From: an uncultured Gemmatimonadota bacterium
GTDB taxonomy: Bacteria > Gemmatimonadota > Gemmatimonadetes > Gemmatimonadales > GWC2-71-9
Assembly (NCBI GenBank): GCA_946887295.1
Contig: CAMPKP010000018.1
Location: forward strand, 1 to 35,126
Direction of reading: 5' to 3'
DNA length: 35,126 bases
Position 1 is the stretch's first letter; each line of letters starts with the position of its first letter. Below the pieces are notes generated by a model. That model did not search any database. It had not been told where the DNA came from and saw nothing but the letters and a program-made list of their open reading frames with translations. This document shows positions 9,990-15,974 of the stretch, piece after piece. Both the position numbers and the translations under genes were made by a program.

Positions 9990-10859
9990 GTGCCCCCCGC
10001 CGCCAACAGCCGACTCCCCGAGCTCCTCGAGCGACGCGAGTCGGACATCCTCGCTCAATGGATCCGGGAGCAGCTCGCCGTCGCCAACTCCCGTCGCGAC
10101 CTCATGCCTGATGCGGAGCTTCGCGACCAGTCCCGGCGTTTCCTTTCGCTCGTGCGTGAGGCCGCGGCTCACGGGCCGCTCGGCACCATCTCCGGGTCGG
10201 CCTGGGACCAGGTGAAGGACCTGCTCGGGGACATCTCGCGTGCGCGCGCCGGCAAGGGCTTCTCCCCCTCGGAGACCGCGAGCTTCGTGTTCTCGCTCAA
10301 GCAGCCCGTCTTCGAGGCACTCAGGCAGGACTGCGGCACCGATACCGCAGCACTGGGCCAGGAGATGTGGGCCGCCAGCAGCCTCCTGGATCAGCTCGGA
10401 CTCTACACGATCGAGATTTACCAGAAGGGCCGGGAAGCGGTGATCGCCAGGCAGCAGGAGGAGATGCTCGAGCTTTCCACGCCCGTGGTGAAGCTCTGGG
10501 ACGGCATCCTCGCGCTGCCCATGATCGGCACGCTGGACAGCGCGCGCACCCAGGTCGTGATGGAGTCGCTGCTCCAGCGCATCGTGGAAAGCGGGTCGGA
10601 GGTCGCCATCATCGACATCACGGGCGTTCCCACAGTGGACACCCTGGTGGCGCAGCATCTGATCAAGACGATCACCGCTGCCCGGCTGATGGGCGCCGAC
10701 TGCATCATCAGCGGCATCCGTCCGCAGATCGCGGCCACGATCGTACATCTCGGCGTGGACCTCAGCACGGTGATCACCAAGAGCACGCTGGCCGATGCCT
10801 TCGAAGTCGCGCTCCGCCGGCGGGGGCTCACGGTCCGCCCCACTCCCGCGCGCGCCTGA
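9990..10859 (+). CDS. rsbR: Stressosome sensor protein RsbR (RsbRD-type N-terminus plus STAS)
   Basis: This protein has 289 residues. The N-terminal ~165 residues are helical and begin PELLERRESDILAQWIREQ, as in the RsbRD-type N-terminal domain that senses input. The C-terminal STAS domain runs from about 172 (STPVVKLWDGILALPMIGTL) to the end. Threonine 218 in VDTLVAQH and threonine 250 in GIRPQIAAT lie where RsbR paralogues are phosphorylated by RsbT. RsbR and RsbS co-assemble into the cytoplasmic stressosome, which holds RsbT until stress triggers phosphorylation. The next gene starts 6 bases after the stop, in one operon with rsbS and rsbT. The signal detected by this N-terminal domain is not known from sequence. 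Confidence 0.9.
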   Translation: MPPAANSRLPELLERRESDILAQWIREQLAVANSRRDLMPDAELRDQSRRFLSLVREAAAHGPLGTISGSAWDQVKDLLGDISRARAGKGFSPSETASFVFSLKQPVFEALRQDCGTDTAALGQEMWAASSLLDQLGLYTIEIYQKGREAVIARQQEEMLELSTPVVKLWDGILALPMIGTLDSARTQVVMESLLQRIVESGSEVAIIDITGVPTVDTLVAQHLIKTITAARLMGADCIISGIRPQIAATIVHLGVDLSTVITKSTLADAFEVALRRRGLTVRPTPARA

Positions 10860-10865
10860 GCCGAC

Positions 10866-14074: not shown

Positions 14075-15974
14075 CGCGCCGCGGATTCTGGTGGTGGACG
14101 ACACCGAGGCAAACCGCTATGCGGTCGTGCGCCACCTGCGAAAGGCCGGGTACCTGGCACTCGAGGCGCTCGACGGCCGGAGAGCCCTGGAGAGCATCGC
14201 TCGAGAGCTCCCCGACCTGGTCGTGCTCGATATCCGCATGCCGGAGATGGACGGGTTCGAGGTGGTGCGCCGCCTGCGCGCCGATCCGAAGACCGCGCAC
14301 CTCCCGATCCTGCACTTGTCGGCGAGCTTCACCGATCCGCTCAGCCAGGCGGCGGGCCTCGACAGCGGCGCGGACGGCTATCTCACCCACCCGGTCGACC
14401 CTGTCGTGCTGCTCGCGAGCATCCGCGCCCTGCTGCGCGTCCGCAAGGCGGAGCGAGAGGCGAGGTCGGCCGAAGATGCCTGGCGCGCGACGTTTCAGGC
14501 GATCGGCGACGGGGTCTGCGTGCTGGATGCCGGCGGCGCCATCGAGAAGTGGAACACCGCCTTCGAGACCGTGGTCGGGCGCGCGGATCTCGCGGGGCGC
14601 CGGCTTCCGGAGCTGATACCGGCCCTCGGCGCGCTCGAGGAGCCTCCGTACGTGGCCTTGGCCGACGGCTCGCCGCTGATGGGCACCGAGATCTCGCTCG
14701 ACGGCGCATGGGTGCGCGTCTCCGCCCGGCCCACACTCGCCGGCGAAGCCGGTCCAGCGGGTGCGGTTGCCGTTCTGACGGACGTAACCAAGCAGCGGAA
14801 TGCGGAGCTGCGGATGCAGAAGGCGCAGCGGCTGGAGGCCGCGGGACAGCTCGCCGGCGGGATCGCGCACGAGATCAACAACATGATGACGGTGGTTCTG
14901 GGACTCTGCGAGCTCATGACCCGGTCCGGCGAGCTCTCCGAGCCGTTGCAACGCGACGCCGTCGAGATCCGAAAGGCCGCGGACCGCGCCGCGGACATGG
15001 CTCGCCAGCTCCTGGCCTTCACTCGCCGACAGATGCTCCACCCGCGCGTGCTCGACCTGAACGGGACCCTGGCGGGCATGGGGCACCTGATCGGGCAGCT
15101 CATGGGCGCCGGCCGAGAGGTGACCTTCACCCTCTCCCCGGAGGCGGGGTCGGTCTATGCCGACGAGGCACAGCTGGAGCAGGTGATTCTCAACCTCGCG
15201 CTCAACGCTCGTGACGCCATGCCTCGGGGCGGTTGCTTCACCATCGCCACCTCGCGGGAGCGGCTCGACGGCGAGTTCGCCGCCCGGTATCCCGGCATCG
15301 AGATCCGGCCCGGGGAGTACGCCCGGATCACCGTCACCGACACCGGCACGGGAATGAGTCCGGAGACGCTCTCGCGGGCCTTCGAGCCGTTCTTCACCAC
15401 CAAGCCGATCGGCGAAGGAAGCGGTCTCGGCCTAGCGTCCGTCTACGGCATCGTGAAGCAGTCCAACGGCTACATCTGGGGCGAGAGCGACGCCGAGGCG
15501 GGAACCACCTGGTACGTGTACCTGCCGCACGTGACGGGATCGCCCGACCAGGATGCGCCGGCGGAGCCGGTGCAGCCGTCTCTCGAGCGGCGCGCCGACA
15601 CCGTCCTCGTGGTGGACGACGAGCCCATGGTGCGGGCCCTGGCGCGGCGGGCCCTCGAGGGCTACGGCTATGCGGTGCTGGAGGCGGAACACGGCGCGGC
15701 GGCGATCCGGCAGATGTCGGCGGAGGGCTGGCGCGTGGCGCTCGCGGTGGTCGACGTCGTGATGCCCGAGATGGACGGCCGAGCACTCGGCGAGTGGCTG
15801 CGCGCCTCGTACCCGGGGCTGCCGGTCCTCTACATGTCCGGGCACACCGGCGACGATCTGGCCCGTCGGCACCTGCTCGCGCCCCAGGCATCCATCCTCC
15901 AGAAGCCGTTTCGTCCCGACGACCTGGTCTCGCGGGTACAGGAGCTGGTCACCATCAGCGGGCGGGGGAGATGA
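14067..15974 (+). CDS. REC-PAS-HisKA-HATPase-REC hybrid response regulator/kinase
   Basis: This cytoplasmic protein has 635 residues. The N-terminal receiver begins RILVVDDTEANR, with acceptor D55 in VVLDIRMPEMDG. A PAS-like segment from ~138 reads ATFQAIGDGVCVLDAGGAI. HisKA carries acceptor H268 in GGIAHEINNMMTV. HATPase motifs are NLALNARDAMPRGG, DTGTGM and GSGLGLASVYGIV. The C-terminal receiver starts TVLVVDDEPMVR, with D563 in VVDVVMPEMDG and the lysine in ILQKPF. No DNA-binding or enzymatic effector domain is present, so the last acceptor must pass phosphate on or act through protein contact. It overlaps the preceding kinase by 8 bases, and D55 is the likely first target of H228. Confidence 0.92.
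   Translation: MSDAPRILVVDDTEANRYAVVRHLRKAGYLALEALDGRRALESIARELPDLVVLDIRMPEMDGFEVVRRLRADPKTAHLPILHLSASFTDPLSQAAGLDSGADGYLTHPVDPVVLLASIRALLRVRKAEREARSAEDAWRATFQAIGDGVCVLDAGGAIEKWNTAFETVVGRADLAGRRLPELIPALGALEEPPYVALADGSPLMGTEISLDGAWVRVSARPTLAGEAGPAGAVAVLTDVTKQRNAELRMQKAQRLEAAGQLAGGIAHEINNMMTVVLGLCELMTRSGELSEPLQRDAVEIRKAADRAADMARQLLAFTRRQMLHPRVLDLNGTLAGMGHLIGQLMGAGREVTFTLSPEAGSVYADEAQLEQVILNLALNARDAMPRGGCFTIATSRERLDGEFAARYPGIEIRPGEYARITVTDTGTGMSPETLSRAFEPFFTTKPIGEGSGLGLASVYGIVKQSNGYIWGESDAEAGTTWYVYLPHVTGSPDQDAPAEPVQPSLERRADTVLVVDDEPMVRALARRALEGYGYAVLEAEHGAAAIRQMSAEGWRVALAVVDVVMPEMDGRALGEWLRASYPGLPVLYMSGHTGDDLARRHLLAPQASILQKPFRPDDLVSRVQELVTISGRGR

Follow-up and report, generated by a model that had tools for sequence, protein, structure and literature searches.

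The stretch of DNA analysed here, 35,126 nucleotides from an uncultured Gemmatimonadota bacterium (the window), carries at positions 9990–15974 six genes on the plus strand that overlap or nearly touch. Pfam and a reading of the open reading frames (ORFs) identify their products, in order, as RsbR, RsbS, RsbT, a fusion of an RsbT-like domain to a phosphatase (RsbT~PP2C), a histidine kinase (HK) with an N-terminal RsbT-like domain (hereafter THK) and a hybrid kinase. We propose that this cluster joins a stressosome and RsbT~PP2C to a kinase whose RsbT-like domain docks on RsbR–RsbS, stress releasing THK and switching it on via a linker helix. On the strength of the sequences, we judge the chances of this proposal to be about even. 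Stress signals would then likely pass straight into a phosphate relay, bypassing the RsbU route known from Bacillus. The signal output of stressosomes that lack SigB is an open question, to which this type of locus offers a specific answer, open to test in a broad range of bacteria; it names the domains involved, a short linker motif and predictions for single residues. Deinococcus radiodurans, a workable laboratory species, is among its hosts.

Composition of the cluster

RsbR (9990–10859, start codon GTG) joins an RsbRD_N sensor domain to a STAS domain. RsbS (10866–11270) is a STAS protein with a phosphorylatable serine, S57, and RsbT (11251–11655, ATG), matched by HATPase_c and HATPase_c_2, is a free GHKL switch kinase. 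In RsbT~PP2C (11646–12671, GTG) an RsbT-like domain, matched by HATPase_c_2, is followed by an RsbX-like phosphatase, matched by SpoIIE. THK (12668–14074, GTG) consists of an RsbT-like domain (HATPase_c_2; residues 1–132, 12668–13063, the ATP-site residues intact), a linker helix, HisKA and HATPase_c. The hybrid kinase (14067–15974, ATG) has the order REC1-PAS-HisKA-HATPase_c-REC2, its two receivers being the two stretches matched by Response_reg. Six bases separate RsbR from RsbS, and all later junctions overlap. This six-gene layout is the one described in a first-pass annotation of the window, and it stands in coordinates and domains alike.

Is a SigB cascade encoded nearby? Pfam was run on 27 distinct ORFs of the window (8 at E 1e-3 and 20 at E 1e-5, one ORF being common to both), and none of them contains RsbU_N, RsbV, RsbW or a sigma factor. 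For these 27 ORFs the first-pass statement that RsbU, RsbV, RsbW and SigB are missing from the neighbourhood is borne out, and a SigB-type partner switch beside the cluster was rejected on the same scan. Neither an HPt domain nor a DNA-binding regulator was found among the scanned ORFs. In the hybrid kinase, HPTransfase narrowly passes its cut-off of 22.9 with 23.2 bits, over a stretch that overlaps HATPase_c.

Mapped against a Bacillus-type locus (L138), T218 and S184 of RsbR and S57 of RsbS align with the Bacillus phosphorylation positions, which we take to be those of Thr205, Thr171 and Ser59, respectively. The second position in RsbR is thus Ser where Bacillus has Thr. The best PDB match of the window's RsbS is the RsbS structure 6jhk (E 1.5e-33). 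We conclude that the RsbRST stressosome module is encoded together, with residues in RsbR and RsbS that are, by alignment, predicted to be phosphorylatable.

Do the ATPase domains resemble RsbT or RsbW? Against the RsbT and RsbW of L138, the one Bacillus-type operon used as reference and one whose RsbW is cut at the locus end, free RsbT scored 105.7 and 4.0 bits, the N-domain of RsbT~PP2C 66.9 and 11.2 bits, and the N-domain of THK 80.8 and 10.0 bits. The idea that the fused domains are RsbW-like was rejected, since their scores to RsbT are far higher. A PDB sequence search with free RsbT returned SpoIIAB chains only (E 4e-6). The same search with the THK N-domain gave weak matches only, histidine-kinase ATPases first and SpoIIAB at E 0.3, and Foldseek with the THK model found ordinary histidine kinases, with GacS on top. 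The phosphatase half of RsbT~PP2C is RsbX-like (3zt9, E 1.7e-14; RsbX 3w40, E 3.6e-7).

Conservation of the cluster

How widely does this arrangement occur? A scan of genome contigs with THK returned 28 loci. Four of these, from Chroococcus, Massilia and two Methylobacterium, match THK from residue 1 to residue 444 or beyond at 38–53% identity, and all four encode RsbS, RsbT, RsbT~PP2C and THK in that order. The other 24 are without RsbS; in two of them (L010 and L023) the match, at about 25%, extends over most of THK. Among plasmid records, 28 contain a match to THK and 37 a match to RsbS, Deinococcus accounting for 17 of each. Every one of the 11 plasmid regions that were opened (D. radiodurans MP1, another Deinococcus, Caballeronia, Variovorax, Xanthomonas, Sphingomonas, Paraburkholderia, Nonomuraea, Embleya, Streptomyces and Salipiger) has RsbRST and RsbT~PP2C. 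With THK as query, matches were also obtained in 7 of 194 genomes of cyanobacteria (E 1e-60) and in 51 of 398 genomes of proteobacteria (E 1e-50). The best-match regions of six further cyanobacterial and 14 further proteobacterial genomes all contain RsbR, RsbS, RsbT and RsbT~PP2C; the lower proteobacterial matches are mostly other kinases.

Altogether 47 loci, the window included, were gathered for the presence of RsbS and RsbT~PP2C. RsbR and RsbT are also present in all of them and the order is the same, so it cannot be put down to chance. The combination of RsbRST with an RsbT~HK fusion occurs in four named bacterial phyla. The short duplicate loci L029–L042, L054–L067, L102–L107 and L137 stand outside the residue counts on these 47 loci and outside the survey that follows; L004, a near-copy of L003, likewise stands outside the 47 and the 60 sites of the survey.

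The survey took RsbS as query (E at most 1e-18) and covered 888 genomes from three phyla, among which the likely phylum of the window does not figure; this query is of the RsbT~PP2C type and the other type may be undercounted. Genomes with RsbS number 23 of 398 in the phylum of Massilia, 9 of 194 in that of Chroococcus and 27 of 296 in that of Arthrobacter. These 59 genomes provide 60 sites, all of which were fetched and scanned. RsbT~PP2C is present at 35 sites (19, 7 and 9 in the same order of phyla), and at the remaining 25 the phosphatase is free-standing or none was detected. A kinase beside RsbRST is a recurrent feature of relatives, which supports the first-pass reading.

What of the sixth gene? 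A receiver-first protein is encoded in 30 of the 47 loci (in L085 on the opposite strand) and, where sites were chosen by RsbS alone, at 22 of 35. Co-localization of all six genes, as envisaged in the first-pass annotation, therefore holds in part: RsbR, RsbS, RsbT and RsbT~PP2C keep together in 47 of 47 loci, the sixth gene joining them in 30 of these and at 22 of the 35 sites. Its first receiver, REC1 (14085–14423 in the window), keeps the Asp and the acid pair in 30 of 30 loci. The receiver Lys is found in none of 29 (His 17, Gln 6, Glu 3, Ala 2, Asp 1; L001 is cut before this position), its place being taken by His in the window. Behind the receiver stands HK-REC, HK or, in four actinobacteria, SpoIIE. 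The features expected of a two-component pair are present, namely the HisKA His and HATPase_c of THK and the Asp of REC1. REC1 would appear to be the best candidate partner of THK, its own output having been swapped too. Because REC1 keeps the Asp but is without the usual receiver Lys, phosphotransfer from THK to REC1 is plausible, not more.

A linker motif and its distribution

What do the output proteins share? THK bears at residues 194–205 (13247–13282) the sequence TNRGVLALYAEL, an instance of the motif L-x2-EL-x-[ED]-TNxGVxALYxEL. An AlphaFold2 model of THK (mean predicted local distance difference test score 81.5) places this linker in one helix, residues 157–245, which continues into the HisKA dimerization and phospho-acceptor domain (residues 219–286, 13322–13525). 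A relaxed form of the motif occurs 72 times in the 4553 ORFs of 137 loci, and 71 of these occurrences, duplicate loci included, are in stressosome outputs; the lone stray is in L015. The linker is present in 44 of the 47 RsbT~PP2C loci. It was not found in the outputs of the RsbT~PP2C loci L051, L053 and L128, nor in the next-best kinases, L068–L081. All of the best 120 proteins of 7996 scored carry the motif, as expected for the closest relatives, and two of these 120 listed matches are named as Gemmatimonadales. Four motif strings had no occurrence in the literature searched. The outputs of L047, L048, L108 and L109 carry two tandem copies of the TNxGV motif, 18 residues apart.

The linker precedes class I HisKA kinases and kinases of the hybrid type with REC (L003, L050, L134). 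It also precedes PP2C or GAF-PP2C outputs (L052, L110–L116) and, as a loose match to the motif, PAS-GGDEF-EAL in L132. In L053 and L128, HisKA_2 kinases come after the RsbT-like domain. The linker helix is the more constant output element; several lineages have an RsbT-like domain that is degenerate, or have lost it.

Might TNRGV be the homologue of TLRGI in the linker of Bacillus RsbU, which bears the RsbT-contacting R91? Among 30 Bacillales RsbU proteins, R91 is Arg in 27 and Lys in three; Thr89 occurs in two, Gly92 in one and Ile93 in one. The homology was rejected, the likeness being one of chance.

How is the linker distributed among sites chosen by RsbS alone? At 34 of the 35 RsbT~PP2C sites the next protein carries the relaxed motif (the exception is L128), and at the 25 other sites it was found in none of 1042 ORFs of 90 amino acids or more. 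Fisher's test gives p 5e-16 for this association if the sites are independent, which they are not. Of the 25 sites without RsbT~PP2C, 18 have an above-cut-off RsbU_N no more than about 3 kb from RsbS, and it was found above cut-off in none of the 35 RsbT~PP2C genomes (p 5e-10, on the same assumption of independence, which again does not hold). Below-cut-off matches lie near RsbS at three more of the 25 sites, those of G863, G228 and G048, the last of which also has an above-cut-off RsbU_N on another contig that was not counted. Five cyanobacteria of the RsbT~PP2C type have weak RsbU_N matches away from the cluster. The contig ends within several loci of the RsbU_N type (L123, L125, L177 and L179, for example), and absences there carry less weight.

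These distributions suggest two mutually exclusive wirings of the stressosome, a scheme to which we give an equal chance of being right or wrong. In the first, released RsbT goes to RsbU_N as its receiver. In the second, to which the window would belong, RsbT~PP2C takes the place of RsbX, and outputs are plugged in by an RsbT-like domain together with a TNxGVxALYxEL linker peculiar to this wiring, a universal socket for any dimeric output. The outputs of the second wiring are histidine kinases, PP2C phosphatases and a cyclic di-GMP enzyme. If the scheme is true, any dimeric output could come under stressosome control via the linker socket. The split between RsbU_N and the linker would be the part that is new to a specialist.

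The RsbT-like domain of the outputs

How well is the RsbT-like domain itself preserved? The N-box Asn and the G1-box Asp are kept in 47 of 47 loci both in RsbT and in the N-domain of the phosphatase, and D92 in 44 of 47 and 47 of 47, respectively. In the outputs an RsbT-like domain is detectable in 29 of the 47 loci, with the N-box Asn in 21 and the G1-box Asp in 23. The equivalent of R19 of Bacillus RsbT is present in all 29 output domains, and the R23 position holds R or K in 25. The corresponding residue of SpoIIAB, Arg20, presumably binds the STAS partner. That this binding-face Arg is kept where the ATP site has decayed suggests selection on binding, not on catalysis, in those lineages. 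Among the relatives of the window's THK, on the other hand, the ATP-site residues are invariant (alignment of 44 sequences), and the HisKA His, H228 of THK, is kept in at least 90% of the 44.

The remaining 18 loci comprise ten without an RsbT-like domain, seven actinobacterial ones with a weak remnant, and L132. With a profile of the non-actinobacterial domains, E was 3.6e-6 to 0.013 for the remnants and 0.23 or worse for the domain-less outputs; with one from all 29 domains it was 3.7e-6 to 0.01 and 0.095 or worse, respectively. L110, L113 and L115 are therefore uncertain.

A tree of 66 domain rows was built from 21 of the 47 loci, without the decayed L108 and L109 domains. It unites the N-domains of the phosphatases in a single clade (100/100) and sets these domains, together with free RsbT, apart from the N-domains of the kinases (99/98). 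With these two clades, each RsbT fusion is compatible with one old origin. A tree of class I kinases (L051, L071, L075, L136 and P0006 left out, CckA-like and HisKA_2 outputs absent) unites the 38 stressosome kinases in one clade against 11 other kinase rows (100/99). In that clade the kinases that have lost the RsbT-like domain make up one branch, surrounded by kinases that keep it (94/96; 93% of 200 bootstrap trees).

RsbT-like~HisKA kinases are also encoded outside RsbRST clusters, at L136:5518–8021 and L135:4915–6393, in two proteobacterial genomes, one of them a Massilia. Both genomes hold a full cluster too, which for L136 is L090. The L136 kinase gene divergently adjoins an RsbR gene, and no RsbS or RsbT was found in that 14.5-kb region.

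RsbT is joined to a different partner in 3 of 27 actinobacterial RsbS loci, where it forms the C-terminal part of a protein that begins with a sigma factor: L122:1929–3008(+), L125:1118–2191(+) and L123:4002–5120(-). The sigma part was recognized as Sigma70_r2 and r4_2 by Pfam in L122 and L125, and by similarity in L123. An H-x3-C-x2-C stretch is seen by eye between the sigma and RsbT parts in two of the three. A protein of this kind could be a sigma factor held directly by the stressosome.

Proposed docking and its alternatives

How might the stressosome control THK? At rest, both free RsbT and THK, the latter by its RsbT-like domain, would be bound to the STAS domains of RsbR and RsbS. A signal at the sensor domain of RsbR would allow RsbT to phosphorylate RsbR and RsbS, and both RsbT and THK would be unseated. 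The freed THK would rearrange its dimer via the continuous helix bearing TNRGVLALYAEL and autophosphorylate on His. The receiver of the phosphate would most likely be REC1 in the sixth protein, and the hybrid kinase would relay the phosphate onward. RsbT~PP2C, whose own RsbT-like domain would bring it to these STAS sites as well, would reset the complex.

We favour docking because the domain is RsbT-like, because its binding-face Arg is kept, because the L136 kinase lies by RsbR, and because RsbT also occurs in fusion with a sigma factor, in keeping with a role of RsbT as the handle by which outputs dock. RsbU_N is the receiver otherwise expected, and its lack of any above-cut-off match in the 35 genomes was also counted for docking, as were the single predicted helix that leads from the linker into HisKA and the union of the 38 class I kinases in one clade.

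Several observations weigh against this proposal. D92 is present in none of the 29 output domains (six of them are gapped there). Ten outputs without an RsbT-like domain (L044, L045, L094–L101) follow the same genes, and their coupling therefore cannot be docking via that domain; the GGDEF-EAL output of L132 likewise has the linker without the domain. RsbT-like~HK proteins without the linker, L135 and L051, lie on long branches outside the kinase clade, so that the fusion is not confined to it (L051 was placed by a tree holding three badly cut rows and the wrong L136 kinase). The AlphaFold2 predicted template modelling score for THK is just 0.52. Finally, the accessible part of a study of Vibrio reports that no interaction of RsbT with the downstream two-component protein was found, and describes no RsbT-like domain for that protein (PMC9237108).

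What, then, becomes of the first-pass suggestion that stressosome output enters a phosphorelay through RsbT-like domains? The kinase domain is indeed of the RsbT type, and the kinase recurs beside RsbRST. The linker is nevertheless steadier than the domain (34 of 35 sites), and PP2C, GAF-PP2C and PAS-GGDEF-EAL outputs occupy the same slot, so this suggestion stands only in part.

The main rival to docking makes the linker helix itself the receiver. Released RsbT, or RsbT~PP2C, would bind TNxGVxALYxEL and reset the output dimer, and the RsbT-like domain would be a losable modulator. This would explain the ten domain-less outputs and the cyclic di-GMP output. It is favoured by the occurrence of the linker at 34 of 35 RsbT~PP2C sites and at none of the 25 others, and by its retention in domain-less outputs and before unrelated outputs. 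It is also favoured by D92, which contacts the RsbU linker in Bacillus according to the accessible part of PMC12143880 and is so consistently kept in RsbT and RsbT~PP2C. However, the likeness of TNRGV to TLRGI is one of chance, as the 30 Bacillales proteins indicate, and the upkeep of the RsbT-like domain in most lineages is left unexplained. We regard a linker receiver as a serious possibility, albeit on the unlikely side.

Could the last two genes be an ordinary two-component pair that shares the operon and senses something else, the N-domain of THK serving as an ATP sensor? The PAS domain of the hybrid kinase is a possible second input, and the ATP site is intact in the window's lineage. 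But the slot also holds non-homologous outputs with the same linker, and the pairing of the linker with RsbT~PP2C is near-perfect, which makes such a pair improbable. Lower still we place the possibility, put forward for the downstream sensor kinase of Vibrio in what was accessible of PMC9237108, that RsbT acts as a Ser/Thr kinase which phosphorylates and switches on the output kinase: its ATP-site residues are intact in 47 of 47 loci, but no Ser/Thr target is known on the output, none having been looked for, and the idea predicts neither an RsbT-like domain on the output nor the mutual exclusion of linker and RsbU_N.

Neighbouring sequences

A promoter scan of 9600–16400 gave one promoter-like site, at 16077–16106 (shuffle mean 0.4). 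TG precedes its -10 hexamer and it lies upstream of a small ORF at 16114/16204, which would fit another transcription unit starting past the hybrid kinase. A terminator scan of the same interval found none (shuffle mean 1.0). At 24433–27570 and in its neighbourhood there are long plus-strand ORFs (one, for example, of 1045 amino acids) with no Pfam match at 1e-5.

At other loci, stress genes accompany such clusters: a catalase HPII gene (katE, L051:9522–11645(-)) lies beside the Paraburkholderia cluster, and genes for a CsbD-family protein, a PP2C and SigF lie beside the cluster on the Streptomyces plasmid (L052:4396–12066). One protein, L121:5627–7843(+), combines RsbU_N, PAS, SpoIIE and a C-terminal HATPase_c_2, that is, a phosphatase and an anti-sigma-type kinase in one chain. 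The Listeria 'plasmid' L183 (NZ_LR134399.1) carries hemG, acpS, alr and an rsb-sigB operon and looks like a segment of a chromosome.

Comparison with known systems

That RsbRST is tied to varied outputs, two-component systems among them, was already known, as the first-pass annotation states: it has been published as a general idea (PMC9237108, as far as that source was accessible). The linkage of RsbRST to two-component genes is thus not new; the arrangement itself is real, conserved and wider than first noted. In the literature searched we found no description of an RsbT domain fused to a histidine kinase, although Pane-Farre 2005 or Makarova 2001 may hold one.

With the rsbRSTUVW-sigB-rsbX operon of Bacillus the cluster has in common RsbR, RsbS and RsbT with matching phosphorylation sites, and a feedback PP2C of the RsbX type. 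It differs in being without RsbU_N, RsbV, RsbW and SigB among the scanned ORFs, in the fusion of its RsbX-like part to an RsbT-like domain, and in having a histidine kinase as output.

The rsbRSTX system of Vibrio vulnificus resembles the cluster in that RsbRST and an RsbX-like phosphatase are followed by signalling proteins, there from two-component and GGDEF genes, with no SigB cascade (accessible part of PMC9237108). There, however, the phosphatase has a single domain and RsbR is globin-coupled, and the same part makes no mention of RsbT-like domains on phosphatase or kinase (PMC9237108); the window's phosphatase, unlike such a single-domain RsbX, begins with an RsbT-like domain. That study, in the part available, distinguishes eleven downstream architecture types, phosphorelays among them, with RsbU_N on some outputs, and gives no positive result for an RsbT–VvD1 interaction (PMC9237108).

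RsbU_N histidine kinases resemble THK as proposed here in that an N-terminal module and then a helical linker lead from the stressosome to the kinase (PMC9237108 and PMC12143880, both seen in part). RsbT activates RsbU through the RsbU linker, and RsbU_N kinases are noted in the same source (PMC12143880, in part). In those kinases the receiver binds released RsbT, whereas the window has an RsbT-like domain and the TNxGV linker instead, and no RsbU_N.

A named counterpart is found in D. radiodurans. From the accessible parts of the respective sources, DR_B0026 is labelled RsbT (PMC7143949); DR_B0028 and DR_B0029 are listed with receiver domains (PMC8363230) and, with reference to Makarova 2001, are called kinases that may be co-regulated with an anti-sigma regulation operon (PMC6501615). 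DR_B0028 is among the proteins that were higher in recovery from vacuum (PMC6501615), and DR_B0029 was more abundant after exposure in low Earth orbit (p 0.046; PMC7597052). The MP1 cluster (L043), to which these old locus tags were mapped by order, has the same six-gene order as the window, with RsbT~PP2C, RsbT~HK and a receiver-first kinase; its THK ends in REC, and its sixth protein is REC-HK.

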